From: Rutstroemia sp. NJR-2017a BVV2
Taxonomy: Eukaryota > Ascomycota > Leotiomycetes > Helotiales > Rutstroemiaceae
Length of the DNA: 64,000 bases
Direction: 5' to 3'
NCBI GenBank assembly: GCA_002946415.1
Contig: NJPS01000054.1
Location: 1,111,578 to 1,175,577, forward strand
Shown here: positions 22,685 through 49,558 of the stretch, piece by piece
How the letters are laid out: every line of letters begins with the position of its first letter
Numbering within the stretch: the first letter of the stretch is position 1
Notes under the pieces: generated by a model
Told to the model about the DNA's origin: nothing
Databases searched by the model: none
Seen by the model: only the letters and a program-made list of their open reading frames with translations
Position numbers and translations under genes: made by a program

Positions 22685-23650
22685 TTACAACTTCATGCTA
22701 GATCTAGCATCATCCAACAAGCGGGCCAATTCTTCCGACACGGGACCCCTCACATTCTGCACCCAAGTCTGTAGGTTTCCAGTGTAGCTCGACTCGCCCT
22801 TCATGTATTTCTTATCTCCAACCCCGTAAGACCACCCGATAGTTCGTGTTCGCTTCTCATCATACGAAGGAGCTTCAGCAAAGAACTTACGCAGGCGGTC
22901 ATTTGTGGTCGCTGGCAAGGGCCCTTCTGGAATATTCAGAGCGTAGAAAGATACACGGGTGATCTCTCCTGTCTTGTACTTCATTGTAACGGCAAAGGCG
23001 AATCGGTGAGGGGGGATGAACTTCTCAAAGTCCTCAAACTCCTCATCAGTCGGAGGCTTGCACTGAGCTAGAGCGGCGTACGCAGCTGCTTGAGGCTTGG
23101 TGATGGAACCTGGGGCGGTGAAGTAAATGTTCAAGGTTCCGCCGTGGTAGTCGACAGCGGTGAAGTGAACGAGCTTCAGACCCAAGTTGTGGAAGGTGGA
23201 GCGGTGCGCCCGGACGGATTCTGGGACTTCGTCCGCGTCCAAGATGTCATCGATTGGTCGTTGACCTTTCATGAGGATCCAAGTCTTGGCTACGCCGTCT
23301 TTGGGATCCAAATCGACCCATTGCACGGTGTTACCGTTGTACATCTTGCTCCAAGAAGTTGCCAGTCGTGCCATGGGGTCATCGGCCTTGATGTAGCCGG
23401 CCTTGACAGCAAGGTCAACGGTGTCCAACTGACTCTTGATGTAGAATCTGTAGTTCAACACGTCGTTGGCCCGGCTTGTCCCGCGCCAGGTTACGGTTCC
23501 TTCCCGCAAGCACTCGTCGAAATTCTTCAGTGTTCCTTCAAGTACCGATTCGGAATATGGAGAATCAAGGGCATCTGCCGTTCTCTTGAAATCTTCCAAG
23601 AACTTCTCTGGAGTGAACACACTCGGAGCTGGGGTGTCAACGGCAGCCAT
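22685..23650 (-). CDS. Fungal CloQ/NphB-type (ABBA) aromatic prenyltransferase
   Basis: Single-exon 321-aa frame starting at ATG 23650. Length and features fit the soluble ABBA-barrel aromatic prenyltransferases of the CloQ/NphB family (SCOP PTase_Orf2): no DDxxD motif, TWRGTSRANDVLNYRFY, a DPKDGVAKTWILMKG stretch, AVDYHGGTLNIYF, GLKLVHFTAVDY and TIGWSYGVGDKKY, with basic and tyrosine residues that line the diphosphate tunnel in relatives. Fungal members from Botrytis, Sclerotinia and Aspergillus terreus have been shown to dimethylallylate 2,7-dihydroxynaphthalene, though native substrates were not known. The enzyme is probably cytosolic and metal-independent. It lies next to a nitroreductase-like gene and a non-reducing PKS, and a cluster-type CGG-N4-CGGG motif sits 430 bp upstream. 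The natural acceptor being the PKS product is my inference. Confidence 0.88.
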   Translation of the reverse strand: MAAVDTPAPSVFTPEKFLEDFKRTADALDSPYSESVLEGTLKNFDECLREGTVTWRGTSRANDVLNYRFYIKSQLDTVDLAVKAGYIKADDPMARLATSWSKMYNGNTVQWVDLDPKDGVAKTWILMKGQRPIDDILDADEVPESVRAHRSTFHNLGLKLVHFTAVDYHGGTLNIYFTAPGSITKPQAAAYAALAQCKPPTDEEFEDFEKFIPPHRFAFAVTMKYKTGEITRVSFYALNIPEGPLPATTNDRLRKFFAEAPSYDEKRTRTIGWSYGVGDKKYMKGESSYTGNLQTWVQNVRGPVSEELARLLDDARSSMKL

Positions 23651-24813
23651 GATTTCGGTCGATATGAAGCAAAAAGAAGTAGAGTGACTGAGTTATTGTG
23701 TGAAGAACCGGATTATTGAAGGCTCTGAATTATGTGTGGATGATCCAGAGATCAATTGAATTATGAACAGAAGAGTCCTTTTATAATATTGTGTACATAC
23801 CACACCAAGCACGTCGGTATTGCACACTAGGTATCTACGTATGTAGTGATATCAAGCTTCTCCGAGTCGCGAACACGGCAAAAAACATTTCGTTGATACT
23901 CAATCCATCAGGATCACAAATATGCGCGTCAGCGCAGAGGCCGACTCCTATCCTGCGCATCATCGGTACTGGATGATGGATTGCAAGAACAGCTTCAGGT
24001 GAAATAGATAGGAAGCTAGTAGGGAATTGTAGGTGTGAGATCGATGCTGACTCAGCCACACGCGATGTAACCTTTTTGAGTCCCGAAGGCCGATTGCTCA
24101 ACACAGCAGTATGAGACCCGATGTTAAGAAAACTCAACCAAACAACTGGTAATTCCGAACTTTCCAAGAATAGAATCTGGCCGTACCTCAACGTACTTGA
24201 GTTCTCTTGTTGGTCGCGGGCAGTTGGAACAGTATCGCCAGTTCAATTTTCAATTGAGGTATCACCACTTACACCTCACAGAATGCCACAATATATTCGA
24301 AGTACTTCATGATTTCTGTACTCCAACAGACTGCATAGTTGTAGTCCAATCACTCTTATTTCTAGTAATAATAAACTCTCTGTTTGTATGCTCTAGTACC
24401 ACGTGACTCACAATTAAAATAAGGTATTGTCACGAGGTGTATATGTTTATGTTATTCTCGGTAGTTAATTGTATAAGAAGATAAAGATAGATCATGATAT
24501 AGGGCTGTTTGATTATGGTCTAAGTAGCTAGTGTTCCTAGTGCTTGACCTGCATTAAGGGTCCTCTGGGTCCAACCCACTATCGCATATAAGAGGTATCC
24601 GCCTAGGTATTCATGGAAATGATAGGACCGGCTTCACGATGTAGATACTTTGGGTCAAGTTGGATCTATTTCAACTAAATCTAAATGCTATTTACGTTTC
24701 TATACATACTATCACTAAGAGAAATTCTATTCCCTACAAGCAAGTGACATGAGATCTTTCTATAACCTTCCGAACCTCGTGCTGAATCTCTTCTTCTCCG
24801 ATTCCCCACCTTT
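23651..24813. other. Intergenic upstream of prenyltransferase
   Basis: Promoter of the minus-strand prenyltransferase and 3' flank of the nitroreductase-like gene. The only notable element is the cluster motif at 24078-24093. The right part is AT-rich with no coding frame. Confidence 0.5.
24078..24093 (-). promoter_or_regulatory. Cluster motif CGG-N4-CGGG, prenyltransferase copy
   Basis: On the minus strand this reads TCGGCCTTCGGGACTC. It differs by one base from the best copies in the PKS/MFS and SxxK-enzyme promoters over CGGGCTTCGGGACT. It lies 430 bp upstream of the prenyltransferase ATG. Confidence 0.5.
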
Positions 24814-25573
24814 CTAAGCTCCATATACCTTCATTCTTTCCTCAACGGGACTGTATTCCTTCTCCGCGAATCGGGGTCCCGTAGGCTTTCCAAATACCAT
24901 CTGGGCGTTCAGGGACCAATCGGCTGGGATATCCCACTCCTTGGCTGCCGCAGCATCCACCATTGGATTGTAATGCTGGAGACTTACGCCGAAGCCCTCT
25001 GCCGTCAGCATTGTCCAAATGGTATATTGCAACATTCCGCTTGCATGTTCTGTCCCTATGTATGAAGTTAGAACCTCTTATATTCCTACTTTGTCGTGAC
25101 TTCTGCTACTTAGCATAAGGTAACTAGCGTGGGTCCTTACATTGGGGCATCTTGTCCTTCACGATGGGCATCCTTTCACAGACCGCTTGCATTGCGTTGC
25201 CACTCTCATAGAACAAGATCTGAACACATAAGCACGTCAGAAAAAGTCGTCTAGTCAGGGCCTTGGTAAGACTTACTGTGCCGTAAGCTGCGCGGAACAT
25301 CTTAATGCGTGGCGCGAAAACCTTCTCGAAGACCGCCGCAGGAACTTTGCTCTTGGCAGAGTCGTGTGCCAAATCCCAGAACTTTTTATGTTCTGCCTTC
25401 ACAAGCACTACAGCACGACCAGATTGACAGTTGAACGGAGTAGGCGAGTGAAGGATACCTTCACGGACAATTTCTTGCACGCGTGAATCGGGGATGTCGA
25501 CATCGTCTGAGAGCGTGTGCAAGGAACTTCGTCCTTTGATGGCGTCGAGAAGACTAATGGTGGAGGGCGACAT
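24814..25573 (-). CDS. Nitroreductase-like flavoprotein (Frm2/Hbn1 type)
   Basis: Three exons fit: 25573-25277, 25219-25141 and 25055-24814, giving 205 aa, the normal length for this family. Motifs are KGRSSLHTLSDDVDIP (the nitroreductase RRSxR-type N-terminus), SPTPFNCQSGRAVVL (FMN phosphate contact), ILFYESGNAMQAV, and, built across the second intron, WTEHASGMLQYTIWTM, with GFGVSLQHYNP near the end. Such proteins bind FMN, use NAD(P)H and reduce quinones or nitro compounds; yeast Frm2/Hbn1 act in oxidative and lipid stress. It has the same strand as the prenyltransferase (about 1.16 kb downstream). A pathway role as quinone reductase or self-protection is possible but unproven. Confidence 0.85.
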
Positions 25574-25779
25574 AATTAGGCGTAGGTTGAGGGTAATCTT
25601 TTGATCCTTGGTTGATGAAAACGGACAAATAACTTTAAATTCAAGAGAGTCAGACGAGCGGAAAGACGAATGAAAAGGGTATTCAATGGTCTGACTTAGA
25701 TACAAAAGCTTGTTAATAGAAGACGGTAGTTCCATTTGGAAGTCAGCTCAGTGCCGACTAAGATATATTACTGCGCCGC

Positions 25780-25797
25780 CGGGCTTCGGGGCTCGGG
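25780..25797 (+). promoter_or_regulatory. Cluster motif CGG-N4-CGGG, nitroreductase copy
   Basis: Reads CGGGCTTCGGGGCTCGGG, an exact CGGGCTTCGGG core followed by a further CGGG. It is about 207 bp upstream of the nitroreductase-like ATG. Confidence 0.5.
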
Positions 25798-27270: not shown

Positions 27271-27294
27271 TAGCTCCGAACCTTTACCAGCCGC

Positions 27295-30200
27295 CTAAGC
27301 CCCAATGGACCTAGCAAGGAACTGGCTCAATCTGTATCCTCGTGGACCGTCCATCATAGTGAAGTGGTTCGCTCCTTCTAGAACCTCTATGTTCAAGCTT
27401 TCCGTCCCGACCAGCTGATCCCATCCATTGGGGCCAAAGTTTGTGCGGTTATTCAGCAACCACATCATCTCGCGTGTATCATCGGGCTGAGGTTCCAATT
27501 TCTTTCCTCCAGTCGAGTTATAGACACCTTCCGCTGCCCAGATGGCGTGTGTCACCGGTGCCGTTCCTTTTGGCATTGGCTTTGGCTCATAAAGGGCCAG
27601 CGCATCGATGAAGGCCAAAAAGTGAGGTAGGAGCCACTCAGGTAGAGCTTTTGTACTGCCAGATCCGAACATGCCGGCACTTGACAGGAAGTCGTACATG
27701 CGTACAGGTAGCTTCTGGAGGTTTATAGGATTGGGTGAGTCAATTAAGACTAGTGATGCGACCTGTTCACCTTCTCCAATTAAGGTAGCAGCGGCATCAT
27801 AAGCACAGATACCACCTGCTGACCAGCCTCCCAAATAGTACGGCCCATGTTCCTGTCGACGGCGGATCTCGGCTAGGTATGGGGCAGTCAGGTCTTGCAG
27901 AGCGCATTTCATGTCTTGCGGCCGTCTCATATATGGGCAGTTCAGGCCGATCACAGCAGTGTCGGGAGCAACAACTGGGAGTGGGGCGTAGGATGTTGCT
28001 GAACCAGAGCCGTCAGGGAAGAGGAAGAGGATCTTGCGCGCAGTTCTGAGACGTCCCTGAAGTACGACTGACGTTGCTGGTGGAAGTGTGACCGAAGGAG
28101 GTGAGTTAAAGACCGGCTTAGGTACAACAGCCAATTGATCCGAGGTCTGAGGTGTGGATGATTCCCCAAAAAGCGACTTCTTGATAGCTGCCATGTCGGC
28201 ATCAAAGAAGATATCCGAGGGGAGATCGATATTAAGGTCCTCTCGTAGCCTTCCGATGATATCCAAGGATAAAAGAGAATCAAGGCCCAGCTCTGCAAGG
28301 GAGGGTGCTTTCCAAACTTCCTCCAACGTCACTCCGATCTCTTCACTCAGAACTGTGGCAATTGCGTTGATGGTTGCTACCTCCTCAGCGTTCCCACCGG
28401 TCGACTTTTCGGCATGGTCGTCCTCGTCCAGGTCAGTGATTTCAGTGGCCGCACTGTCACTGTCGCTAGAAGAGCTTGATTCTATGATCGAGGACTTGCA
28501 ACTGTCCTCGGAAGCTTCTGCAGACCCAGATGATCCGCCGAGAAGCTTCTTAAGTTCTCCGACGGTTGGATAGTCCATAAACACCGATGAACTCACGTCG
28601 ATGTTCAGTTCCTCCCGAAACCTGCCGGTAATTGCCAAGGACAGAAGTGAGTCGACTCCAACGTCATCGAATACGATGTCGTTCTTTAGCTCGGCCATAG
28701 TGATACCGCTCTCCTCGACAATTATATTCATAGCTTGCATAACCACAAGAGGCTCTGAAATCTTGTCTTGTTGGGGTTTCACGGGAGCTTGCTCCTTCAC
28801 TGGCTTCTTCGAAATCTCCGGCTGGCGGACGACACTCTTGGGTGCCGCACTAGAACGCTCTCTGGAGACGGTGCTTACATCTTTTACTGTCTTCGCCCCA
28901 GTAGCTTTAGCCTTAGGGAGAATGATGTCCAAAACCTTTCGGGGCACCGTTTGGAACTAGGTATAATTAGCAAATTGTGCATCGACTTATTCGGGAGAAT
29001 TCTCATATACTTACCGCTACGCCTTGGTTTACACCAATGACGGTATCGCCATGGAAGATATAGACGTCACCAACGAATTTCTTTCCGTCTACGGAACGCA
29101 TTTTGACGTAGGTATCGTACTTGTTTTCCGTTGACAGCTTAACCGCGCATCTGATTGACTCCCAACCGTGGTTAAGGAACACCTGCTCCTTGTAATCGAA
29201 TGACTCAGTAGCGTTCATAATGAAGCCTGAGAGATGGCCAAGACTGTCGATGTAGTAAGGGTTGCCATAGAAGCAAGTGCTTTCATCCTTGAGTGCGACA
29301 CGGGCTGTAGCTTCGTGGCTCTTACTGTCCAAGTACACTTGCTCGATGCCCTGGAATTTCTCTCCATACTCGACACAGTTCTCGAACAACTTGTACACCA
29401 ATCCACGCTTGATCAGATGGTACTGGCCGCTTTGGGTAGCATCGCGGAGGTTCTGCATGCGTGATTGGACGAGATATGCTGTTCGGTTCCACTCAGAAAT
29501 CCAGGCAGCTGGGTCACCGAATCGAACTGTGCAAGTTGCATGCTCTATAGTTTTCTCACCGTGCGAGCCAACACTGTAGAAGACGAGTTGAGCAGTCTGA
29601 GATGCCCAATCGGCCTCGGCGGAGACGCGGAAGAGTTCTGGTGTGCCCGGGGTCTTCATCAATAGTGGCTTGGTGGTAGACATATTTGCAACTTCAACAC
29701 CGTGGTTTTTCTTCATTGGGTTGCCACCTTCGTGCAAGTAGTCACCCAGGGTCATAGCAATATCGGCATAGACGGATGAAGGACATAAGATTGCGCCGTT
29801 CACCTTGTGTGCTTCGAACACGGCCCTAAGATCGGGATGAGCGATGTCCGACTCAATCAGCACCGATGATTTTTCAGGTCCATGTTCGGACTCCAATACC
29901 TTCTGGCATGTGGCTGACAAGAAGATAGGTGCAGCGGCTGGAGCGGGGAGAGCCTTGGTGACGACGGCAGGAGCATCGCCTTTAGTCAAGCACCAGTTGT
30001 TGACATATTGAATCCAGTGGTTCTTGTAGTCCCATTGGTAAGAAGGCAGGGAGATAACCTTTTGGGAAGCGTCGAAGTCTCGATGGAATTCGTTCCATTG
30101 AATCTCCAGACCGGATTGGTAGAGGTTCGAAAGAGCCTCGCTCATTGTAGCCCAGATGCTGTCGTTCTTTCGGACTGTAGCGAGTGCCTTGATGGATGAG

Positions 30201-33200
30201 CTGATAGTAACCTTCAACATTCCCATCACGACAGGATCCGGTCCAATTTCCAAGCAGACGGTATCCGTGGATATCATCTTCTGAGAGATGGCAGATTGGA
30301 TAGCACCGACCATATCAACAGTCTCGCGGCAATGTCGTGCAAGATACTCAGTGCCGAATTTGCCCTCCTCAGTGATGACTTCAGCCAACAAGGGTGAAAG
30401 AATGGGGATTTTTGGCTCCTTGAAGACGATGCCGCGAGCGACTGTCTTGAACTCATCGATAACAGGTTCAACCTGAGAGCTGTGGAAGGCGAAATCAGTC
30501 TTCAACCTGGTTGTTCTGATACCGCTCGGGGCTAGTGCTTCTTGAGCGCGATCAACATCAGCCGCCAAGCCAGCGAGGACGGTCTGAGAAGGACCATTGA
30601 TACACGCAACCTCGAGACGATAGCTTTCTAGCACCTGGGTAAGAGAATCCACAGGAGCCTTGACAGCCAGCATGGCATGGGTTCCGGCTGAGCATCTTTC
30701 CTGCATAATGCGAGCCCGCGATCCAACGAGGAAAACAGTGTCTCGGGTGGAGAGCACGCCAGCCGCATGCATAGCCGCATATTCGCCGAGACTGTGTCCG
30801 ACAACTACGCTAGGAACAACTCCGAAAGATTCCCAGAGACGAGCAAGGGCAATCTCGAAGCAAGTCAATGCTAATTGGGTAGCTTGAGGAGTGTGGTTCA
30901 TGATGTCATCTGGGGTGCTGCTACCGTTGATTAGGGGCAAGAACGAATCAAACCCGAAACTCTTGGCGATAGCATCTAGACGTTGAATCTCCTCGCGGAA
31001 AACACGGAAAGACTCAAAGAGGTGCTTTCCCATTCCATCGTAGACCGAACCTTGTCCTGTGAAGGCAAAAGCAACGCCGGGGGTGTTGCGAGGAACTGGT
31101 TTGGCCTCCACTGCGGCAGCCTTTTCGAGAGCGGTCCTCACTTCGGCAATTGTGCGTCCGCTAACAGCCAATCGATAGTTGTAGTGCATTCGTCGAGCTG
31201 TAGTTGTGTAGGCCAAGCTTGCAAGATCCGTATTAGGATTCTGTCGGAGGTGCTCTGCAAGGCGCTCGGCGTTCTGACGAAGGGACTTGGTGGTTCTTGC
31301 TGACACAGTAACGAGGTGAACGTCTCTCTTGTCTTCCTGTAGAGCAGCTTCGACTGCTGTAGGCGGCTCCTCAAGAAGAAGTGCTGAGTTACCACCGGCA
31401 GCGCTGAAGTTGTTCAAGAAGGCGACCCGCTTACCATCGGTTGGCGCCTTCCATGGTGTTGCTTCCATGGCGATACGGATTCCACGCTCGTTCAAATCGG
31501 TTGGGAAACCGGTGTTGAGCTTGGTTTTGATTCCGACGTGGGGTGGAATCTCGCTGTTCTTCATCATCATCATCACTTTGATGAGCGATGCTACTCCGGA
31601 TCCAGACTCGGCATGACCAATGTTGGCCTTGACTGAACCGAGGTAGAGTGGCTTGTTCGCAGTGCGGCCAGAACGGCTGCCTGTGAACACATCGAGGACA
31701 GATCTCATTTCTACCGCATCACCGGCTTGTGTCTATTGAAATTGTCAGTCTCTTATATTATCTTCAGTGAATGTTAGGATCACTTACGCCTGTGCCGTGC
31801 ATCTCAATATAGCTCACATCCAGAGGATCGTAGCCGGCGTCATTAAGAATACGACGGAAAATGGCGGACTGTGCGCCGGTGTGTGGACGAGTGATGGACT
31901 CAGCTTCGGCGGAGTGGTTAGTGTATGCTCCGCAGATGACAGCTTGAATTGGATCTTTGTCTGCCAATGCGTCTTCTAGCCTCTTGAGGACCACTGTCCC
32001 GACAGCATCTGCACGGCAGTAACCGTCGGCACCGTCATCGAAAGTCTTACAGTTGCCGGTGTGAGACAGGAAATGGCCCTTGTCCAAACCAGTGAAGTTG
32101 TCAGGGTTGGTCATCACGTTGGTGCCACCTGCAAGGGCAGTATCACAATCGTTTCTCCAGAGTGAGTTGCAAGCCATGTGGATAGCAGCGGCACTTGAAG
32201 AACATGCTGTGTCAACACTGACACTAGGTCCGGAGAATTTGAAGTGGTAGTTGATACGTCCTGGGGTGAAAGCACGGTTGCCACCGGGGATGAAGTATGT
32301 GCCGATGTTTTGCCCGCTGTTGACTTCACGCCAGTCATCACTGGTCATCCCATAGAAAATTCCTACTCGGTCGCGTTGGGTGGAGGGAGTTCTGTCAGGA
32401 ACAACACCGGCCATCTCGAGGGCCTCATAAGCAGTCATCAAAGCGAGTCGCTGTCCAGGATCAGATTGGTCTGCCTCCTTGGGGGAGAGGTTGAAAAAGC
32501 GGCTATCGAAAAGACCGGGCTCGTTGATGAAACAACCATTTCGAACTCCTGATGCGTTCTTCGTCTTGCCAGTTGGGTCAAAGTGCGCATTGACGTCAAA
32601 TCTGTCTGCCGGTATTTCACGGTGAACATCGCGTCCTTCGTGGAGAAGATTCCAGAGACTATCGGGATCAACGGCATCAGGAAATCTGCCTGAATATCCG
32701 ATGATTGCAATCTTGGATTGTTCTGGTCGTCCTCCGGTTCTTACAGCGGAGTTTGGTGTGCTTGTGATGTTCTCAACATTGACTGTAATGCCTTCGATCT
32801 CAGCGAGGGCACTAGCAAGGATCTGCGATGTGTTTGTGCCAACGTAGTAAACAGTCCATTGTGGGCACAAGGTTGCTTGGCAGAAGTTTCCGACAGATTT
32901 GATGATTCTATCCAATCGGAGAGGCATCATGAGCATCTCCTCTAAAGCAATAGAAAGTAGCTCTCCATATGTAGCAGCTGCGATTGGCTTTCCAGTTGCG
33001 CCAGAGAGAACTGGGAGTTTTGCGGTTGTCATAGCGGCGGCCTCGGAAAGGGGTCTTAGGATGTCTTCGATGTCCGATGGGGTATAAATATTACCCTCGT
33101 GATACGGAGCATAGACCGTGGCGGGGAAATACTTGAGATCGCTCATGATGGGGGAGCTGAAGAAGTCTTTCAGGACCCGAGGATGTCCAAAGATGGAGAC

Positions 33201-37973: not shown

Positions 37974-37984
37974 CGGATCTCGGG
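37974..37984 (+). promoter_or_regulatory. Possible cluster motif variant, oxidase promoter
   Basis: CGGATCTCGGG keeps the CGG-N4-CGGG frame but the spacer differs from the other copies. It is 159 bp upstream of the multicopper oxidase ATG. Weakest member of the set. Confidence 0.3.
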
Positions 37985-38142: not shown

Positions 38143-40122
38143 ATGCTACGAAATTTTTTGGGAGGCCTGGCATTGGCCTCAGCCTTGCCGTTCACACTGG
38201 GCTATCCCTCGGCCGCCGGGTATGGCAATGGCAGTAGCAATGGCCCTCGTCAATTCGACCTGACCCTTACTTGGGAAAAAGCTTCTCCAGTTGGTGTTAG
38301 CCGAGACATGATCTTGATCAACGGGCAGTTTCCCGGCCCGTTGTTGGAGATCAATGAAGGAGACGAAGTATGGGTCAATGTTCACAATAAACTGCCCTTC
38401 AACACAACTATGCACTATCATGGTATGTAACCGAAATTTGTCAATACTCACAACATAGATCACTTTCTGAACCTAGTTGACTAATGCTATACACAGGAAT
38501 CGAGATGGTTGACACTCCATGGTCTGATGGTGTACCCGGTTTATCGCAGCGAGAGATACTTCCAGGGGGGTCTTTCTTGTATAAATGGAAAGCTCTTCAG
38601 TACGGCGAATACTGGTATCATTCCCACCACCGAGGACAGATTGATGATGGCCAGTTCGGACCGCTCATTATTCACCCCAAGAAGAGCAGGCCAACGCCGT
38701 TCGGGCTCATATCCCAGGATAAGGACACTCTTGCCGCCATCCAGAAAGCTGTTTCCAAAGTCCAGCCACTGATGCTGAGTGACTACCGAAATCTTCCTTC
38801 GAGCGAGTCCTGGGATATCGAAGTTGCAGCTCAAATGGAGATTCCGTGTTACGACTCTCTGCTCATCAATGGCAAAGGGAAGATTGACTGCTGGTCCGCA
38901 AATAAAACTGCATCACTTCTCAGTGCGCAGCAGAAACAACTCCTCGGCGCGGCAGGCAATAAGGCGTTCACAGCTAAAAGGTATGCGTTTCTTATTCCCC
39001 ATGCTATCTTAAACTAAAATCGTCCATAGTTGTCTTCCTAAAGACGCCCAAGCCAAGATTATCGCGGGCAACCGACCAGGAATCAATCTCTCAGCGATAC
39101 CAGCCGAGATATTCGATGTTTGCACGCCCACGAAGGGGTCCCAAACTATCATCGAGATTGTAAAAGACGATTGTGATGATAAGAATGGAACATGGGCTGC
39201 ATTTGAAGTAGTTGGTGCTTATAGCACCCTGACTACAGCCTTTTCGATCGACGAGTTGGATTTGTGGGTATATGCCGTAGACGGAGAGTACATAACTCCT
39301 CAGCGAGTCAACGCTATCACTGTCACCAACGGCGATCGCTATTCCTTCCTCGTGCATCTCACTGCTTTCAAGGATTATACAATCCGACATGCATGCATCT
39401 TACCAATTCAGTTAATCAGCGGGCAAGCAACACTTTCATACCGTAGCGGCGACAAACATTCGGCGCCCGCAAACCAAACCTCGAAGCCATATATTAGTGA
39501 CGGAGGAGTGGCCCTAAACGCAGGGGTAGTTTTCTTCAGTCAGAACGTGCAGAAATCATATCCGCCTTTCCCTGTCGCACAGAAAGCGGATCAAACCGTC
39601 CTCCTCGAGATAGGAAACACCGAGACCGCCTACCAATGGGCCCTTAACGGAACATCACAGCCTATGACGCTTGATTCAAGCAACCCAATCTTGTTCGCAC
39701 CGCAACCCAATGTCATGAACAACCTGACTATCACTACGCTCAACAACACATGGGTCGATATCATCTTCGCGACCGTGCAGGTGCCACAGCCAGCTCACCC
39801 AATCCATAAACACGGAAATAAAATGTGGCTTATTGGATCGGGCCAGGGGGCGTTCAAGTGGAGCAGTGTTGAGGAAGCGGCAAAGGCTATGCCCCAGAAC
39901 TTCAACTTCGTGGATCCTCCACGACGTGATGGATTTTCAACGGTCGATGCCCCGAGAGCCCCAACATGGATTGCAGTACGTTACCATGTAACCAACCCAG
40001 GTGCCTGGATGATTCACTGTCATGCTACAACCCACTTGTTAGGTGGTATGAGCATGGCGATCCAAGATGGCATTGACCACTGGCCGCAGGTGCCCTCCAA
40101 CTATGTGAATTACAATGCATAA
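38143..40122 (+). CDS. Secreted multicopper oxidase (pigment-type laccase)
   Basis: Three exons fit: 38143-38422, 38497-38980 and 39030-40122, giving 618 aa. An N-terminal signal peptide (MLRNFLGGLALASALPF) is present. The copper ligand motifs are complete: L1 HYHGIEM (built across intron 1), L2 YWYHSHHRGQ, L3 HPIHKHGN and L4 HCHATTHLLGGM. The HPxHKHxN form of L3 and the HCHxxxHxxxGM ending are found in ascomycete pigment oxidases such as Abr1/Abr2-like and cercosporin-cluster enzymes. Such enzymes oxidise or couple phenols with O2 outside the cell or in the secretory route. In this cluster it could make a quinone or dimerise the naphthalene product. Methionine in L4 suggests moderate redox potential. 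Confidence 0.93.
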
Positions 40123-40923: not shown

Positions 40924-41352
40924 TCACTTTGATCTCTTGGTATCAGCAAAGTTCTCATGATCCGCCATAATGGATCTCTTGTACTCGGGGTCCGCCTTGA
41001 GCGCCTTGAACTGTTCGATATTGCGGAATTGAATTTGTACAATGCAGTCGTAATCCGTTACATTGGCGAACTGAGGATCGAAAAGCTCACCCATCAGAAC
41101 CCGCGTAGAGAGTGGTGTATGTGACTATCCAAGTAATTTGTTAGACTATTGAACTCATATAACACTAGATAGCGCCCCTTTACTTACCATGCTGTACTTG
41201 TCAATGCCATGCTTAACCATGAGGCCCTTCACCAACGGCGCGTGCTTGTTGATCATATAGTCGCGGTACTCCTCCTCACTCATGCCCTCTTTTCGATAGG
41301 CACACATAGTGAGGCAGAGCATCGGTCCATCCTTTTGAATTCCAATCGCCAT
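40924..41352 (-). CDS. EthD-domain small enzyme (dimeric alpha-beta barrel)
   Basis: Two exons, 41352-41188 and 41124-40924, encode 121 aa. MLCLTMCAYRKEGMSEEEY, then DYMINKHAPLVKGLMVKHG and, after the intron, the C-terminal DYDCIVQIQFRNIEQFKAL and DPEYKRSIMADHENFADTKR give the EthD pattern (R/K-xGMS-x-EE, conserved HAP, and D-HENF-D). EthD-type proteins in fungal aromatic polyketide clusters include decarboxylases (for example TpcK-like) and oxygenase-like or cyclase-like helpers. The gene is divergent from the FAD monooxygenase, which strongly suggests co-regulation. The precise reaction here cannot be fixed; decarboxylation or rearrangement of the PKS product fits best. Confidence 0.9.
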
Positions 41353-41780
41353 GATGAATGATGTTGGTGGTAGTTCGTTGGGTTTGAGGTGTTGAAAAGT
41401 GGTACAGCAGAAAGATCCAGAATCAGGAGACTTACCCGCTTTTAAGATGGTTCGATACGTAGTTACAGGAAGATATATTATCAGCGCTATTTATGGTGCG
41501 GTTGTGAGCCCCGATTCCTGTCGTAAGCCTAACAACATACCATTTTCCATCTCACTTCCCCGTAGTCTGCGAACCCCGAACCCCGATGATCGATCCATTC
41601 AAAATATCGGCTACTCTTTTAAGGGGCAGTACTGATGATATATGATCTAGAATTCTTGTCCTGATCTAGAGCTTCATCCAACAGTCTTATCTTCATCTTC
41701 CAATCTTTCATTTAACCACAATACAACCACAACACAACACAAACTTTAATACAACACAAACACAATACAACATAAACACA
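41353..41780. promoter_or_regulatory. Bidirectional EthD/FAD-monooxygenase promoter
   Basis: 428 bases between divergent start codons, with a cluster motif at 41570-41587. The monooxygenase side ends in a repetitive ACAACACAACAC leader close to its ATG, an A/C-rich 5' untranslated sequence common in highly expressed fungal genes. Confidence 0.6.
41570..41587 (-). promoter_or_regulatory. Cluster motif CGG-N4-CGGG, EthD/FMO copy
   Basis: On the minus strand it reads ATCGGGGTTCGGGGTTCG; the core CGGGGTTCGGG matches CGGGCTTCGGG at 10 of 11 bases and is partly repeated. It lies roughly 200 bp from each start codon. Confidence 0.5.
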
Positions 41781-43013
41781 ATGGGATCTGTAGAAGAGGA
41801 AATTCTCATCATTGGTGGCGGGCTAGGAGGGCTGTGTTTGGCACAGGGTCTTCGTAATGCCGGTATTCCATTCCGTGTTTTCGAGCGCGACGCAAATGCG
41901 TCCTGGAGACCTCAGGGTTATCGCCTTCGCATCAATGGAGAGGGTGCGAATGCGCTGAAAACAACGCTTTCACCCGAGTTGTGGGAGAGGTTTGAAAAGA
42001 CCTGCTCTTCCACGGAGCTGGGCGAGACTGATATCAACGCTATCGATGGAGGAGTTATCGCTAGCCGCGCCGGTGGCGGTCCTCAGATGAAAGGACTCAA
42101 GCCATACACTTGCGATCGGATGGTATTACGGGATATACTCCTGACAGGACTCGAAGAGAAGATATCGTATGGCAAGACGCTGGCCCGCTATGAGATTAAT
42201 GATAGCGGAGTCATTGCCTACTTTAAGGATGGCACAACTGCACGTGGAAGATTCCTCGTCGGTGCCGATGGCAAGAGTTCTGTAACGAGAAGACAGTATC
42301 TGCCGAACCACCAACCTCTCGATACTGAAGGAATGTGTATCTACGGAAAGACCCCTATGACCCCTGAACTACTCGAAAGGTTCCACCCACGCGCCATGCG
42401 ATGGATGACGCTCGTCGTCGATCGCACTCCCATCACACAAACGCTTGACATCGACGACTCAGCTGTCACCCTCCTGCTAGAGCCGATCCGCTTCCAAAAG
42501 AAGAACGACGAATTCGACCAATACTTGCCAGCAGACTACATGTACTGGGTATTGATTGCTCGAAAGCACATCTTCGGCTCCGCAAGCGAAACACCCGTTT
42601 CCAAACGCACACCTGAAGATAGCGCTGCTTTGTCGCTACGTATCACCGAGTGCTGGGATCCCAGCATTCGCTCAATCCTGCACTTGCAAGATAAGCAACA
42701 GTCCAGCCTGCTCAACGTTCTGTCCGCAGATCCAGAGATGGAGGCCTGGACTTCGTCCGATAAAATCACATGTATTGGAGATGCAATCCATGTAATGAGT
42801 CCCAGTGGAGGTGTGGGAGCAGTGACGGCGCTAATGGATGGTGCCAATCTTGCCAAGATCATTTCCACACAGGGCATCTCGACAGAGAGTATCGGTGAAT
42901 TCGAAAGGAACATGCGTGAATATGCCGGCGCCAATATTCGTAGGAGTTACTTTGGTGGCCGCAAGTTGTTTGGGCAGAGACCATTCGAGCAGTGTAGCAA
43001 GTATGAGGGATAG
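41781..43013 (+). CDS. FAD-dependent aromatic monooxygenase
   Basis: Single-exon 410-aa frame. The N-terminal dinucleotide fold IIGGGLGGLCLAQGL with FERD at the end of the second strand binds the FAD ADP part. FLVGADGKSSVTR is the DG motif, and CIGDAIHVMSPSGGVGAV is the GD motif contacting the flavin ribityl. Length and order match group A flavin monooxygenases (salicylate/PHBH type), which hydroxylate phenols or turn hydroquinones into quinones using NAD(P)H and O2. It is paired head-to-head with the EthD gene. The expected substrate is the naphthalene or naphthopyrone from the PKS. No N-terminal signal peptide, so cytosolic. Confidence 0.93.
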   Translation: MGSVEEEILIIGGGLGGLCLAQGLRNAGIPFRVFERDANASWRPQGYRLRINGEGANALKTTLSPELWERFEKTCSSTELGETDINAIDGGVIASRAGGGPQMKGLKPYTCDRMVLRDILLTGLEEKISYGKTLARYEINDSGVIAYFKDGTTARGRFLVGADGKSSVTRRQYLPNHQPLDTEGMCIYGKTPMTPELLERFHPRAMRWMTLVVDRTPITQTLDIDDSAVTLLLEPIRFQKKNDEFDQYLPADYMYWVLIARKHIFGSASETPVSKRTPEDSAALSLRITECWDPSIRSILHLQDKQQSSLLNVLSADPEMEAWTSSDKITCIGDAIHVMSPSGGVGAVTALMDGANLAKIISTQGISTESIGEFERNMREYAGANIRRSYFGGRKLFGQRPFEQCSKYEG

Positions 43014-44028
43014 GACAGGGTTCACTGAGGAGCTGGAACTGGGTTGAACGATGGTGCGAGGCTTTGGTTGCTTGGAAATTTCCTGAGCGGGGAGTTGATC
43101 CTCCGACGCCAATGCCGATCTGCGGCGCTGTTATTTCATTGTCCTGTATACTTTATTTTGCAGTTTTAAAAATATAAGCTATGATATATTATGCATCGTT
43201 ATTACAGGGAATCGAATCCAGCGCCTTGTAATCTACTCCGTCATTATTCCCCACTCCCAGACGTCCCACACTCTATCTGCTCATATAGTCTCGCTCCAAA
43301 CTAGCACGCTAGGAAATTATTTGTGTTACTTGCGGGTACGAAGTTGATCCTAGGAAATCTTGACTTTCGCGGGCGCTACCAGACCAATGCAACCCTGCGG
43401 TCAGATGGAAGATGAGAAGGAGCGCAAGCCCTTGCCTATACATCAGCGGGAATAAGCTTCTGTGGAACGTCGAGAGACACAGGGGCTAGGTTTAACCTAG
43501 CGAGCTTAGTCAGAGGAGTCACTCCTCATCCATTGAAAGGGCGGTCACTGAGACAAGATGCCCCGTATTACTGTGTTAAAGCTTGAAGCGTTGAACTCAG
43601 CACGCGTAAGCTCGGTATTGCAGCCATTTTTCTTGGCTTGTTGGATTTCTTTGTGGCTGCCGGCAAATACAAATCTCACCGGCGCTATCATCACCATCTC
43701 ATGCGTCACCGGGCTTCGGGACTGGAATACATCTTCGAGTCCCCAAATTCTTGTACGGCATCGGAATGCCGGTGAATTATGTGTGCTTGCTCGGCACCCA
43801 GCGGTGTAGGTAGATACAATAACACTCTGTAATGTCGGTCTATGTCAGGGGATTACCAAACTGTGATTCCATACCAGCTACCAAGAGCAAAATCGTACTT
43901 GCCTACCAACGTCGGCCTCTGAACATTTCAGATACATAAGGAGTTCTCGGTTTCCTTGAATTTATTCTTGATAATAGATCGGTCTCGAGCCGTCTAAACG
44001 GAAGAAAGATAGGATTTACAAAATCAAA
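43014..44028. other. Intergenic, promoter of the SxxK enzyme
   Basis: FAD monooxygenase 3' flank and the promoter of the next gene. One strong cluster motif at 43710-43723. A short plus frame at 43558-43809 crosses the motif and has no family signature. Confidence 0.5.
43710..43723 (+). promoter_or_regulatory. Cluster motif CGG-N4-CGGG, SxxK-enzyme copy
   Basis: CGGGCTTCGGGACT is identical over 14 bases to the second copy in the PKS/MFS promoter. It sits 319 bp upstream of the ATG at 44029. Confidence 0.6.
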
Positions 44029-45599
44029 ATGGGGAGTACAGAAACACCCAATCAGGACAGTCTCAGCCGGATTTTAGAGGCGCACGTCAACGGCGAGAGC
44101 CCTGCACTGCATAATGCATGCTTTTCCGTGGCAGGGAAAGACGGTGAGTACACTTATCTCAACCAAGAACGGATTGCAAAGAGCAAGATAACTGATAAAA
44201 ATTCGCGCAGCAGGTGTGCTCTATTCTGCAGCATATGGCTCGCGGGATTTAGCGCGGTCACAGCCTGTCACAACAGACTCTGTGTTCTGGATTGCATCCC
44301 TCACGAAGCTTTCCACTGCGATCGCTAGCTTGATTGCCGTTGAGAAAGGCCTCGTCACTCTCGACCAGAACGTCAGAGAAATTGTCCCAGAACTTGCTCA
44401 ACTCGATGTTCTTGAAGGGTTTGATGATGATGGTACACCACGCCTGAGAAACTGCACGTCCCCTATTACTCTACGGTAAGAAACAAACTAGATGAGAAGG
44501 TCTTTACTGAAAATCCCATGCTGATATCAAGCGATAAGCCAACTGCTTTCACACAGCAGCGGCTTCTGCTACGACAAGCAACATGAGGGTCTTCAGCGGT
44601 GGGCAGCGTACGTTGGAAAGACAGAACACACTTTCACAGGATCATACGTGAGCAATTTCCCTAGATCCGTGTACCTCAACTGGGAAATGAGCAAGTACTG
44701 AAGCACTACCTTGGTTGCAGGCAGGATACCTTTACCCCCTGATTTTCGAGCCTGGGCAGGGCTGGGCCTACGGTTCTGGAATGGACTGGGCAGGCCGCAC
44801 GGTGAGCACTCTTCATCACATAACTAACCCCCTGAACAATTTTCTATCTGCGAAATCCAAAGCCGCGATTAAGGTACTCCCCGAAACTGACGATACCTGC
44901 AGGTCGAAGTTGTTGCGAAACAGAATCTCGAAGCCTTCATGAAAGCCAACATCTGGGATCCACTTGATATGGACTCGACCACCTTTCAGCCGTGGACACG
45001 ACCAGACCTTGAAGCTAGGTTTGTTGAACTAGCTTTCCGAACTCCAACCGGCACTGTCGTTAAGGGAAAATCTCCCTACGCCTACCCGGCACCTGACTGC
45101 TGCGGTGGTGTTGGTCTCTATAGCACTCCTGCCGACCAGACAAAGCTCCTTTCCGCGTTAGTAAGCGGCGGCTCTAGCATCATGAGTGCGGCGAGCATGA
45201 AGGAGCTGTTAGGGCCACAGACTTCCGACCCCTCTCATTTTCTCTCGGTGGTTTGTGGTACAAACAGGGCGCATTTGGGTCAGACCTGGCCAGATGGAGC
45301 GGTCGGTGACTTTGGACTCAGTTCATCCATTAATGCAGACGACTTCCCTGGTCGAAGAGCAGCGAAAAGCGCAAATTGGCAGGGTATGCCGGGTGTTCAT
45401 GCGGTGAGTCGCTAATCTCATTTCTCGTCCTTCTATTTCTCTCTGCTAACACTTGGCGCAGTGGCTTGATCCTACGACAGGCTTGGCGGGACTTTTCGTA
45501 ACCCAACTTCTGCCTCCCGGAGATAAGGTGGTTACTAAGTGTTTCGGTGATCTGGAAAGGGTAGTTTACCAATTGTATGGGTCATCCACGAGAGAATGA
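44029..45599 (+). CDS. LovD/EstB-like serine enzyme of the class C beta-lactamase fold
   Basis: Six exons fit (44029-44143, 44214-44475, 44539-44647, 44721-44801, 44903-45403, 45462-45599), giving 401 aa, close to LovD (about 413). The catalytic SxxK is WIASLTKLSTA; the tyrosine motif is WAYGSGMDWAGR; SHSSGF and a W-DPTTG..G.F.TQLLPP ending are family traits. Members are esterases or, in lovastatin and related pathways, acyltransferases that use an acyl-S-carrier and acylate a polyketide hydroxyl. Here no partner acyl-making PKS is present, so esterase or acyltransferase both remain open. No signal peptide. The cluster motif in its promoter ties it to the PKS. All catalytic elements are intact. 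Confidence 0.9.
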
Positions 45600-46219: not shown

Positions 46220-46230
46220 CCCGAGGCCCG
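46220..46230 (-). promoter_or_regulatory. Cluster motif CGG-N4-CGGG, thioesterase copy
   Basis: On the minus strand CGGGCCTCGGG, 10 of 11 bases as in the consensus core, about 275 bp upstream of the thioesterase ATG. Confidence 0.45.
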
Positions 46231-46310
46231 ACTACCGACACCCCGGTATTCACCACATGGCAAAGGAATGGATCTTGAACCTCAAGGCGCCATCTCGATC
46301 TTGGTCCATG

Positions 46311-46374: not shown

Positions 46375-46502
46375 TTGTGCGTAAAAGATGCATATAAGAT
46401 TGTACATATATGATGGAGTAACCCCGGGAACGACAGTTTTATATAGTATCTGAACGTTCTATACACGTCTTAGAGAATCACCGCACTTTTACAGTTTTCA
46501 AC

Positions 46503-47446
46503 ATGATCGTCACAGCAAGTTCGGTCCTGCTCCAGGGCAACGTCCCTACATCAGTTAGCAACTTGTTCCTCTTTCCCGGGACATTCAACGGCTTCCCGGT
46601 CTTCGCTGCATTGCCTCCAATCGAGCTCAACCGTATCGCAGTCTTCGAACTAACTTGTTCCTTTGCCCATACCCCAGAACATCTCAGCAGCATCAGTATT
46701 CCCGAACTGGCATGTCTTTATCTCGCCGAGATCCAGCGACGACAACCCCACGGCCCTTACTCATTGCTTGGATACTCTGTTGGCGGTGTCATTGCCTACG
46801 AGGCAGCTCGACAGTTACTTGAGGCTGGAGAAGCGGTAGAGCGGATTTATCTCGTTGATGCACCATGCCCCATGGGTAATCGACCTACGTCGCACAGTCT
46901 GACACAGGTCATCGATTCGAAACACGATAAGCAGAGGGAGGCGGAGCAACAGTCAAAGATGTCAATGAAGCTGATGGGCGCACTCCACGCGACACAAAAA
47001 CTACTCAGCCTTGAGACATACATGCCCCCGTCAATATCATCATTCCCAGGCCACCCCATCCCCAAAACAACCTATTTCTTCGCTAAGCAAAGGCTCGATT
47101 CCCACAACATGCTGAAACGACCAAAGGACTCAGAAAGTGACCTAGGCTCCATGTCCTGGTTTCGTGAAGAACGTGAAGGATTCGGAATGACTGGAGATGG
47201 GTGGGAGAGATTAGTGGATAGAAGCAAGCTGAAAATCGTTCCTCTGAACGGAAACCACTTGAGCATTATGGAAGAACCAAATGTGAGTTGCGGATACTTC
47301 TTTCTTTTCCCGATAGAATTGGTCACTGACTTTCTCCCTTGTAATAGATCTCAGAATGGGCAACGGAAATACGATCTTCGTATTGGGATTCAGCTTTTCC
47401 ATTCAAAACAAGAAGTACCCGAAGAAGAGTGCTAGAAAGATATTAA
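46503..47446 (+). CDS. Free-standing PKS-type thioesterase
   Basis: Two exons, 46503-47282 and 47348-47446, encode 292 aa. SSVLLQGN, LFLFPGTFNGFPVFAALPP and YLAEIQRRQPHGPYSLLGYS match, block by block, the TE domain that ends the neighbouring PKS (SVVLQGR, ILFLFPDGSGS, YLAEIRRRQEHGPY, GWSAGG). The nucleophile is in GYSVGG, the acid in LVDAP and the histidine in GNHLSIM. It lacks any ACP. It probably arose from an NR-PKS TE domain. It may release, hydrolyse or edit PKS-bound chains, or act on the finished product as the A. fumigatus Ayg1 does, although Ayg1 is a different family. The substrate is unknown. Confidence 0.9.
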
Positions 47447-48072
47447 AATTTGGTAGAAGTTAGATCAATAAAGTCTGTAACATAGCTATTTAGGGAGTTT
47501 TTGAGTTGGTTGTGAAAACATTTAGATTGCTAGAGGAGGATATATAGAAGGCTTGGCGATGTAGGGCCCCTCGAATTGAACTGCTCAAACATGTGTACTC
47601 TTAACATAAACTATATATAGAAATGATTAGGAGCAAACTTCTATTCTATTGGTAGCATGTGACCTTTATCTGTACATCCTAGATAGCTTATAATTACCTT
47701 GTAGTTAGATGCTAACTTTGCTTCCCTTTCTCAACCGGCGGAGGAGGGGGACTCTTGATCAGAGCAACGCCCGAATCGCTTTAAGCACAGAATGCTTTCC
47801 AACTACTACCGTATATATATAGTACTACCTTTAGTTAGCTTAGCACATCTCTATACCCTTCGGGAGGTGATAGGACAGTAGGTTAGCCTATTGCCCGCCA
47901 GACGAAAATGACCACTCGCTCTCTCTCTCTTTATCTGTACATCTAGGAATTATTGGAAGCAAACTACTATTCAATTGGCTCCATATGACGTCTATCTGTA
48001 CATGTAACTCTAGGTACTAGTAATATTCCTTCAGCTTATATGTAAAGAAATTTGCTGCGCTATCTACCACTT
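47447..48072. other. Convergent intergenic region
   Basis: Between the ends of the thioesterase and the regulator genes. A CTTCGGGAGG half-motif at about 47858 is noted. Nothing else. Confidence 0.5.
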
Positions 48073-49558
48073 CTAAATATCCATTGTCGGCGAAGGACTC
48101 CTAAGCTCACACGCCGCTTTAATTTTAGTATAACGATGCTTGATAAATTGACCAAGTGCTGAGTAAATAAACCTGTCTTCACCGAGCTTCTCATCTCGTC
48201 CCCCCGCCGAGTATTTGTCTGAAAACAGCTGCACCACACCTTCCAGCTTCGATAATTCGTGCAAGACCAACTGGGCTCGCAACCGCCCCTCGATTTCCCC
48301 GTCCACGTTGTACGCACCGAATCGGAGCGGGACCGATACGAAAGCGCTCTGCTCCTGCGGCATTTGTTGTTTTGGAATGCTGCCAAAGTTAAAAGGTGTG
48401 GTGTCGTCGATTTTGGCGATCGCTCCGTATGCTGCTAGCACTTGAGAGATAATAACGGAAAGGAGGAATGGCAGGTAGGCGTTGGCATCGCAGGAACACT
48501 GGAGGATGTCTATTAATTGCTGGGTGATACTCGAGCACATCAATAACGCTTGGTCGGTGGTGATTATCGGTTGTGGACCGCCCATTATGTTGTGTTCCTG
48601 CTGCATCGTATCGCCCCGGGAAGCCATTATGATGACGGATTTCTGAAGTGATTTTGCAGCACGTAGACAGCTGTGCCCATATGGTGGCGTTTGGGGCTGT
48701 TGGTGTAGACTTGGATTCATAAATAAATTGCTGTCATCGGAAGGGTGATTGAAGTTGTTGGGGGCGGTAATGTGATTGTGCCACGAAGGTTCGGGTTTTG
48801 TGAAATTCAAATGGGGGAAGAAGTCGGATTCTATCGTTGATGAAACAGAATTCGAGAAGTTGGGAGATGGGGAGTCGAGTTCCGGCATTGTGAAGTCATC
48901 TCCGTTTGTGAAAAGGTAGTCCATGATATTCATACCATCCATTGGATCATGGCCAGGTGAACCTGTACTGTGTCCCGGTTGTACACCCATGTCGTTATCC
49001 AGTGTGGTTGGTATGGGCTGGAATGGAGAGATGGGGTCAGGCAGCCTAATCTCACGATCCAAACTCAAATCCAGGTCTGGATATTGCTCCTTGGGTATTG
49101 GTGAAGGCGCTGATTCGGAGGAAGGTGGTGTTAAAGTCTTGATTGCGCTGTCTGGAAGTTGGCTCTGCTCTATCTGAGCGGCTGCCCTTAAACACTGGTC
49201 GGCGTCTGATGGCCCTGAGCCATGAGAAGTAGGTGGCATCTGCAACTTGCCAGCGTTGAGGGCTTTGATAAATTCGATGGTCGGCTTCCCAGTCCTCATC
49301 GAGACGCTGTAACGGCAGTTGCTGCCTATTCGAATACAACGACCACATTGTGGGTGCTGTTTATCACAGCGAACCTTGGCCTCGGTGCATAAATCACAAG
49401 ATCTTTAGAACGATGTCCGTTAGCTTTCGAAGTCTCAAACTATCTAGCCACTGGCGACTAGACTGAGGACGAGTTACTCACGAGCGAAATATAACGGCTG
49501 GCAGCTTTGGTTGCCGAGTCTTGCGAGTTTGCTGTGGAGTATTCTCTGATGGTGCCAT
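48073..49558 (-). CDS. AflR-like Zn2Cys6 transcription factor (pathway regulator)
   Basis: Two exons, 49558-49482 and 49402-48073, encode 468 aa. The zinc cluster is SCDLCTEAKVRCDKQ followed by CGRCIRIGSNC, a complete CX2CX6CX6CX2CX6C. It is followed at once by a short basic stretch (RYSVSMRTGKP), as in AflR-type regulators. The C-terminal half has SVPLRFGAYNVDGE, RLRAQLVLHELSKLE and FSDKY, the pattern of AflR-family C-terminal domains. The middle is Pro/Ser/Asn-rich, likely an activation or linker region. It lies at the end of the cluster and is the obvious candidate to bind the CGG-N4-CGGG motifs. I found no motif copy in its own upstream 600 bases. Confidence 0.92.

Follow-up and report, generated by a model that had tools for sequence, protein, structure and literature searches.

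A candidate gene cluster for a prenylated aromatic polyketide in Rutstroemia, pairing a non-reducing polyketide synthase with a CloQ-type prenyltransferase

A block of ten genes at positions 22685–49558 of the 64,000-nucleotide stretch of DNA analyzed here (the window) is probably one co-regulated cluster whose product would be a naphthopyrone or naphthoquinone of heptaketide type, prenylated and oxidised; the clade of its non-reducing polyketide synthase (NR-PKS) gives neither chain length nor ring pattern. The case rests on the gene content of the block, on a promoter element that the prenyltransferase gene has in common with the rest of the cluster, and on the linkage of related genes in other ascomycetes.

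Gene content and the prenyltransferase

The block was delineated by Pfam searches and by our own gene models, all ten of which start with ATG, have GT..AG introns and contain no internal stops in the final model check. It is flanked on both sides by conserved housekeeping genes, CLPTM1 (19840–22008) and a proteasome alpha gene (from 51126 onward). The NR-PKS (27295–33938, minus strand; 2141 aa, five exons) has the domain order SAT-KS-AT-PT-ACP-ACP-TE and was assigned by Pfam, motifs, clade and gene model. To its right lie an MFS transporter (34747–36558, plus; 560 aa, three exons, with PF07690 on the long exon) and a three-domain, laccase-like multicopper oxidase (38143–40122, plus; 618 aa, three exons; PF07732, PF00394 and PF07731). 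The nearest solved structures to the latter are fungal laccases and multicopper oxidases, and its N-terminus looks hydrophobic by eye, so that it is probably secreted. These are followed by an EthD-domain protein (40924–41352, minus; 121 aa, two exons; PF07110, 92.5 bits), an FAD-dependent monooxygenase (41781–43013, plus; 410 aa, one exon; PF01494, and 4hb9 with E 8e-39) and a LovD-like serine beta-lactamase-family acyltransferase or hydrolase (44029–45599, plus; 394 aa, six exons; PF00144, 113.4 bits), which matches Pc15g00720 (E 1.5e-42) and LovD (E 4.7e-41). A free-standing thioesterase (46503–47446, plus; 292 aa, two exons at 46503–47282 and 47348–47446; PF00975) is 30–35% identical to the TE domains of NR-PKSs, and a Zn2Cys6 regulator with an AflR domain (48073–49558, minus; 468 aa, two exons; PF00172 and PF08493) closes the block. 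These genes and the prenyltransferase were all found where the original prediction had placed them. Its set was not complete, however, as it had overlooked a nitroreductase-family protein between the prenyltransferase and the PKS (24814–25573, minus; 205 aa, three exons; PF00881, 53.4 bits), the nearest solved structures of which are the nitroreductases 1ywq and CinD. An NCBIfam search with four of the proteins gave nothing over the curated cut-off among the matches listed, and neither Rfam at the gathering threshold nor a tRNA scan returned anything.

The prenyltransferase (22685–23650, minus strand; 321 aa, one exon) matched PF11468 over its whole length with 259.5 bits, against a cut-off of 22, and CloQ with whole-length similarity (E 6.7e-56). 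Its predicted structure (pLDDT 93.6) superimposed on CloQ with a TM score of 0.90 at 34% identity, and a Foldseek search with the model placed CloQ at the top, followed by AmbP3/AmbP1, FAMD1, NphB and EpzP. Judged by this model, the protein is a member of the CloQ/NphB-type ABBA family with a predicted ABBA barrel fold. It had been described beforehand as CloQ/NphB-like; the kinship with CloQ was borne out, but NphB is much less alike, both in sequence and by Foldseek. While it resembles CloQ and NovQ of the Streptomyces aminocoumarin pathways in fold and sequence, it differs from them in having a fungal NR-PKS as its neighbor and a Zn2Cys6-type element in its promoter, and 4-hydroxyphenylpyruvate is an unlikely acceptor for it.

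Fungal ABBA enzymes reportedly prenylate 2,7-dihydroxynaphthalene, those tested in vitro being said to come from three species, A. terreus, B. cinerea and S. sclerotiorum, and the physiological function of the fungal CloQ-type enzymes was reportedly unknown. We take these 2,7-dihydroxynaphthalene prenyltransferases to be the fungal PF11468/CloQ-type group. The three species were absent from the named rows among the 40 prenyltransferase rows listed, many of which are nameless. According to a passage of PMC4684245, ABBA genes outside well-defined clusters had until then been seen only in fungi; unlike the fungal genes described there, the prenyltransferase gene of the window lies inside a cluster.

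Association of the prenyltransferase with the PKS

The direct repeat CGG-N4-CGG occurs 13 times in the 11.3 kb of intergenic DNA of the cluster, where 2.3 sites would be expected. N4 was clearly enriched as a direct-repeat spacing, and other repeat spacings were not comparably so, with the exception of N11 direct repeats (7 vs. 2.0). The N11 count includes a contribution from overlapping N4 sites. Sites are found upstream of nine of the ten genes, including the prenyltransferase, and in seven of eight distinct upstream regions, the PKS and MFS genes having one region in common and the EthD and FAD-monooxygenase genes another. The prenyltransferase promoter has one site (24083–24092, minus strand; CGGCCTTCGGGACT), and two overlapping sites lie upstream of the nitroreductase gene (25780–25796, plus). 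There are three in the shared PKS/MFS promoter (34347–34373, plus), one, matching the consensus less well, upstream of the multicopper oxidase (37974–37983, plus), one in the divergent EthD/FAD-monooxygenase promoter (41576–41585, minus), one upstream of the LovD-like gene (43710–43719, plus; CGGGCTTCGGGACT) and two upstream of the free thioesterase (46221–46237, minus). The remaining two of the 13 do not fit this arrangement, one (22468) being in front of CLPTM1 and the other (36573) just past the MFS stop codon, and the promoter of the AflR-type regulator itself has none.

Since the motif was picked post hoc, only a test that left the prenyltransferase out is free of that bias. A consensus, CGGGCTTCGGGRCT, was built from the nitroreductase, PKS/MFS and LovD-like sites and searched with at most one mismatch in the 43.4 Mb, giving 24 matches, 21 of them beyond the three defining ones. 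One of these 21 fell in the 1163-bp region upstream of the prenyltransferase gene, where about 0.0006 would be expected. The sequence CGGSYTTCGGGRCT has eight exact matches in the 43.4 Mb, four of which are in this cluster, that in the prenyltransferase promoter included. The classical AflR site, TCG-N5-CGA, showed no enrichment (one in 7.9 kb of upstream DNA vs. nine in 30.3 kb of flank). The shared promoter motif that had been proposed for the locus is thus real and, as far as the sequence can tell, is an enriched, regulon-like element whose reach includes the prenyltransferase gene.

Linkage in other fungi was assessed at the contig level only, from identical reported contig sizes of rows, each row being a cluster of proteins at 90% identity and many of them lacking a species name. 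A prenyltransferase row and a PKS row of the window's clade were found on contigs of identical size in five of the six named species that had both; in the sixth, they came from different records. Prenyltransferase, PKS and FAD-monooxygenase rows occur together on same-size contigs in Astrocystis (665086), Echria (1225698), Trichoderma barbatum (235332), Hypoxylon FL0890 (824548) and Xylariaceae AK1471 (571498). In Hirsutella, the prenyltransferase (HIM_06867) and the FAD monooxygenase (HIM_06872) are five locus tags apart. A prenyltransferase row and an FAD row also have a reported contig size of 31297 bp (ENA) in common, and in Clarireedia the FAD monooxygenase (ACMFMG_004563) and the PKS (ACMFMG_004567) are four tags apart, as in the window. 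A prenyltransferase (P0034, 14477 bp) and an FAD monooxygenase (P0185, 14478 bp) whose contigs differ by one base were left out of the counts. A named prenyltransferase row was missing for 12 of the 18 named species with a PKS of this clade, which is weak evidence because each row stands for proteins grouped at 90% identity and many rows are nameless. Metarhizium rileyi and Podospora didyma have PKS and FAD rows on a same-size contig and no named prenyltransferase row. Pairwise identities (15 pairs from six taxa) correlated with r = 0.68 for prenyltransferase and PKS, 0.54 for prenyltransferase and FAD monooxygenase, and 0.82 for PKS and FAD monooxygenase. The prenyltransferase thus tracks the other two less well than they track each other, and gains or exchanges of it may have been more frequent.

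The genome contains two other PF11468 copies, 44% and 31% identical to the prenyltransferase of the window. No NR-PKS was seen within about 30 kb on each side of either, and no SAT on their contigs among the 14 matches listed. They were rejected as further prenyltransferase–PKS pairs: the neighbor of one (C59) is a long NRPS-like gene and that of the other (C36) an O-methyltransferase-like gene, both as read directly from the sequence.

It is conceivable that the locus produces a naphthopyrone-type pigment or quinone without a prenyl group and that the prenyltransferase at its edge is a neighbor serving another pathway. The prenyltransferase is indeed the outermost gene, adjoining CLPTM1, and the 12 species without a named row, M. 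rileyi and P. didyma among them, would be expected if this were so. However, the presence of the cluster's rare element in the prenyltransferase promoter by the held-out test, the same-size contigs in five of six species and the close tags in Hirsutella all argue against it, and we consider it unlikely. The original prediction had derived the link between the two genes from proximity and the promoter motif and had taken their separation in most relatives as one sign that would speak against it. The link is strengthened by the common contig in five other ascomycetes, whereas the 12 species and the two paralogs with no NR-PKS nearby detract from it.

The PKS and the class of its product

Every domain of the PKS has its expected catalytic motif, for all the motifs looked for, and the synthase is complete, as had been claimed. 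In a quick tree, it falls into a separate, fully supported clade of 19 rows within a fork (97*) of 41 rows, to which the PksP/wA (YWA1) synthases belong as well. Rather than PksP/wA, the closest neighbor of this clade (91, unstarred) is a group of eight rows that contains another PKS of the genome (C68); PksP/wA is the nearest group of nameable function. The PKS is 96% identical to a relative in Rutstroemia and 89% to one in Clarireedia, several close relatives having been named automatically as “polyketide synthase for naphthopyrone YWA1”. It is 47–51% identical to the Aspergillus YWA1 synthases PksP/Alb1/wA and has the same domain order, but, unlike in PksP/wA, members of the window's clade, and they alone among the rows listed, share same-size contigs with a prenyltransferase row.

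Prenylated phenalenones are known from Leotiomycetes. The product could be such a compound, of the herqueinone or sclerodin type, if a PhnA-like heptaketide synthase and a PhnB-like flavin monooxygenase were followed by prenylation. That prenylated phenalenones exist is documented in part of PMC9608606, and the phn cluster of Penicillium herquei (herqueinone/phenalenone) has a heptaketide NR-PKS with an identical order of domains and a flavin-dependent enzyme, according to a section of PMC8727740. A legend of PMC6568001, shared by phn and a Fusarium cluster, names an O-methyltransferase and an ADH, whereas the domain search found neither in the ten genes that the housekeeping genes enclose. 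The window cluster also differs from phn in its additional multicopper oxidase, EthD, LovD-like, thioesterase and nitroreductase genes. A prenylated phenalenone is quite unlikely.

The PKS, earlier assigned to a naphthalene or naphthopyrone type, shares a fork with the YWA1-type synthases but stands apart from the rows that we labeled as DHN-melanin synthases. These rows fall into a different clade, about 42–43% identical to the window PKS, in which two other PKSs of the genome (C38 and C19) group. A DHN-melanin (T4HN) synthase was rejected on this position in the tree, and a prenylated T4HN or flaviolin, as a fungal counterpart of the Streptomyces naphterpin/furaquinocin pathways, appears improbable, even though the reported prenylation of 2,7-dihydroxynaphthalene by fungal ABBA enzymes would suit it. 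So would the bacterial enzymes in the portion of PMC7253389 on NphB and naphterpin, where Fnq26 takes flaviolin and DHNs, and NphB takes DHNs. It is very improbable that the cluster is cryptic or decayed, given ten open gene models, an intact set of PKS motifs and the high identity of the PKS to its Rutstroemia and Clarireedia relatives.

Proposed route and significance

For the favored product, a prenylated and oxidised naphthopyrone or naphthoquinone, the PKS would release a naphthopyrone-like aromatic by Claisen cyclization, like the PksP/wA synthases, and the ABBA enzyme would place a dimethylallyl group from DMAPP on an electron-rich carbon beside a phenol. The FAD monooxygenase might then hydroxylate the ring towards a quinone and the multicopper oxidase oxidise or couple phenols, while the nitroreductase and the EthD protein could act on quinone or cyclization intermediates. 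The LovD-like protein and the free thioesterase may transfer or remove an acyl group, the MFS protein would serve in export, and the AflR-type protein would drive the CGG-N4-CGG promoters.

The naphterpin, furaquinocin and merochlorin pathways of Streptomyces follow the same logic of an aromatic naphthalene polyketide, a soluble ABBA prenyltransferase and oxidation, and the window cluster would work alike. Their PKS is of type III, whereas the fungal counterpart is an iterative type I synthase; the likeness meant here is one of working. We see about an even chance that the locus represents an ascomycete cluster family (Leotiomycetes, Sordariomycetes and, through Microsporum canis, perhaps Eurotiomycetes) in which a CloQ-type ABBA enzyme prenylates a naphthopyrone or naphthalene from a type I NR-PKS, possibly giving a laccase-coupled dimer. 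If so, fungal CloQ-type enzymes would have their first natural pathway, and fungi, by means of another kind of PKS, would have a counterpart of the naphthoquinone meroterpenoids of bacteria. No characterised cluster with a fungal CloQ-type prenyltransferase and an NR-PKS was recognised in the literature, most subscription papers and MIBiG lying outside the search.

The intact synthase, the common promoter element and the linkage in other species allow the question of what these fungal enzymes do to be put to a direct test with a single PKS and a single prenyltransferase. The pairing of the two here and in several other fungi suggests a natural role for the little-understood fungal CloQ-type enzymes and names a concrete class of acceptor, the product of one identified PKS.

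The cluster locus and its genes

The window corresponds to C50:1111578–1175577 in the 43.4 Mb, 79-contig genome. The block at 22685–49558 holds ten genes flanked by two conserved housekeeping genes: CLPTM1 at 19840–22008 and, from 51126, a proteasome alpha-subunit gene. From left to right, these encode the CloQ-type prenyltransferase (−), a nitroreductase (−), the NR-PKS (−), an MFS protein (+), a multicopper oxidase (+), an EthD protein (−), an FAD-dependent monooxygenase (+), a LovD-like protein (+), a free thioesterase (+) and an AflR-type regulator (−). Gene models came from a simple purpose-written predictor and inspection of the DNA. All ten final models are open with GT..AG introns, and Pfam backs the family of each gene, bearing out the gene set originally predicted; that list was nevertheless incomplete, having omitted the nitroreductase. 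Elsewhere in the window, 15588–18290 encodes a fusion of glutamine amidotransferase and chorismate-binding domains, probably a 4-amino-4-deoxychorismate synthase, and an ORF with an AAA_12 helicase-type domain (6329–7255) lies within a predicted gene at 6197–10234.

The prenyltransferase matched PF11468 (259.5 bits) and CloQ (E 6.7e-56). Its AlphaFold model (mean pLDDT 93.6) was closest among solved structures to CloQ (TM 0.90), followed by AmbP3/AmbP1, FAMD1, NphB and EpzP. Forty relatives were listed, including one at 99% identity. Two further copies occur in the genome, on contigs C59 (44% identical) and C36 (31% identical). No NR-PKS was seen among the predictions in the 60 kb around each, and none of the genome's 14 SAT matches fell on either contig. 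The lack of an NR-PKS beside these copies puts the base rate for a prenyltransferase next to an NR-PKS in this genome at one in three. The C59 region (49767–75567) also contains a predicted 4056-residue NRPS-like gene and ABC transporter-like and 2-oxoglutarate-oxygenase-like genes; judging by sequence, this looks like another fungal ABBA gene in a cluster, there with a peptide system. The divergent third copy (C36:395357–396208) adjoins an O-methyltransferase-like gene.

The catalytic motifs looked for were present in all seven PKS domains. The protein shares 96% identity over 1748 aligned residues with its Rutstroemia sp. NJR-2017a WRK4 counterpart and 89% with the one from Clarireedia jacksonii, which would make the source a Rutstroemia or a close relative. 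A 55-row tree was built from the window PKS, six of the seven paralogs fetched from the genome and 48 rows (90%-identity protein clusters) chosen from 120 listed of 197; the C46 paralog was left out because its model was too short. The tree was made by a quick method, and it gives very long branches to three of the genome's paralogs. One of these three, C2a, barely aligns, and its model may not even represent an NR-PKS. The window PKS falls in a fully supported clade of 19 rows, which a 41-row fork (97, starred) unites with the PksP/wA groups; its nearest neighbor there is an eight-row group including the genome's C68 PKS (91, unstarred). A separate fork holds rows that we take, by their species, to be DHN-melanin synthases, and with them two further NR-PKSs of the genome, C38 and C19.

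A shared promoter element

A short-dyad search over the upstream regions of the ten cluster genes gave CGG-N4-CGG as the top pattern, with 15 occurrences spread over nine regions, where the flanks would predict 1.3. PKS and MFS share one promoter, as do EthD and FAD, and each of these was counted twice, so that seven of eight distinct regions have the site. Non-overlapping intergenic DNA contains 13 sites in 11.3 kb, whereas the density in 221 kb of sequence elsewhere would give 2.3 (Poisson 1.2e-6, uncorrected for the roughly 2000 patterns examined), and N4 was outstanding among the CGG repeat spacings compared. Eleven of the 13 lie upstream of cluster genes; the two misfits, at 22468 (before CLPTM1) and 36573 (just past the MFS stop), are without the fuller consensus. 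The multicopper oxidase site is weak, and the regulator's own promoter has no CGG-N4-CGG.

The fuller consensus, CGGSYTTCGGGRCT, occurs eight times genome-wide (once when read backwards), four of these in the cluster, upstream of the prenyltransferase, nitroreductase, PKS/MFS and LovD-like genes. Because CGGSYTTCGGGRCT was derived from these very sites, a second pattern, CGGGCTTCGGGRCT, was built from the other three with the prenyltransferase site excluded. Allowing at most one mismatch, it gave 24 matches (11 backwards), three defining and 21 further, one of which fell in the 1163-bp prenyltransferase upstream region, where 0.0006 was expected. The looser CGGNNTTCGGG was hardly enriched genome-wide (230 versus 197 backwards). 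Four exact CGGSYTTCGGGRCT copies are located elsewhere in the genome, three of them within predicted genes. The fourth (C62:231209–231222) is about 0.55 kb upstream of a gene at 231765–233034 (+) predicted to encode a pyridine-nucleotide/FAD oxidoreductase, which on inspection looks AIF/FSP1-like, with Pyr_redox_2 under the cut-off (first 90 residues). This gene is a possible unlinked member of the regulon.

Linkage and co-divergence in other species

As a proxy for linkage, we took equal reported size of the longest contig among the prenyltransferase (40), PKS (120 listed of 197) and FAD monooxygenase (120 listed of 936) rows of one species. Among the matches listed, all three were on equal-sized contigs in Astrocystis sublimbata, Echria macrotheca, Trichoderma barbatum, Hypoxylon sp. 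FL0890 and Xylariaceae sp. AK1471. The original prediction was open to challenge if prenyltransferase and PKS were separated in most relatives. On one side, contig sizes were equal in five of the six named species with both a prenyltransferase row and a clade PKS row among the matches listed, the rows of the sixth, Xylaria arbuscula, coming from different records. On the other, 12 of the 18 named species bearing a clade PKS had no named prenyltransferase row among those matches, which is weak evidence of absence because each row is a 90%-identity cluster named after one member.

PKS and monooxygenase shared a contig size, with no named prenyltransferase row, in C. jacksonii (tags four apart, the window's spacing), Xylaria acuta, X. 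cubensis, X. telfairii, Metarhizium rileyi, Xylariaceae FL0255 and Podospora didyma, the last being weak since its contig is 5.3 Mb. It is quite possible that M. rileyi and P. didyma lack the prenyltransferase. Prenyltransferase and monooxygenase were on an equal-sized contig in Hirsutella minnesotensis, five tags apart (six genes in the window), and a 31297-bp contig size (ENA) was common to one row of each; in M. canis the two genes come from separate records.

Over 15 pairs from six taxa, pairwise identities correlated at 0.68 for prenyltransferase and PKS, 0.54 for prenyltransferase and monooxygenase, and 0.82 for PKS and monooxygenase. The prenyltransferase thus tracks the PKS less closely than the monooxygenase does, which fits its later or repeated recruitment. 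Among the matches listed, the Dothideomycetes Lentithecium fluviatile (1715727) and Clohesyomyces aquaticus (141023) have a monooxygenase relative and a more distant PksP-like synthase on equal-sized contigs; the PKS–monooxygenase pair may therefore predate prenyltransferase recruitment.

Proposed chemistry and relation to known clusters

Judging from the protein families, the PKS would make a heptaketide naphthopyrone, which the ABBA enzyme would C-prenylate with DMAPP as donor. The monooxygenase, whose nearest solved relative is 4hb9, then AbsH3 and others, would hydroxylate, and the multicopper oxidase would oxidize or couple. The nitroreductase and EthD protein may act in quinone or cyclization chemistry. 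The LovD-like protein (nearest solved relatives Pc15g00720 and LovD) and the free thioesterase (30–35% identical to NR-PKS TE domains) may transfer or hydrolyze acyl groups.

FogH, a DMATS-type enzyme, is related to a Xylaria enzyme that adjoins an HR-PKS. That Xylaria enzyme is termed ABBA-type in a passage of PMC11161606, and ShPT appears in part of PMC10344970 as a DMATS enzyme with very low similarity to CloQ/NphB. A passage of PMC4684245, citing Haug-Schifferdecker 2010, places ABBA prenyltransferase genes outside well-defined clusters so far only in fungi. The phenalenone alternative was weighed using phn cluster content from sections of PMC6568001 and PMC8727740. No characterized fungal cluster combining a CloQ-type enzyme with an NR-PKS was recognized in the literature searched.

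The link between prenyltransferase and PKS, originally drawn from proximity and a shared promoter motif, was the weakest step of the prediction. That the two belong together is now backed by two independent lines and is supported, not proven. The locus is a known kind of cluster in a new variant form.
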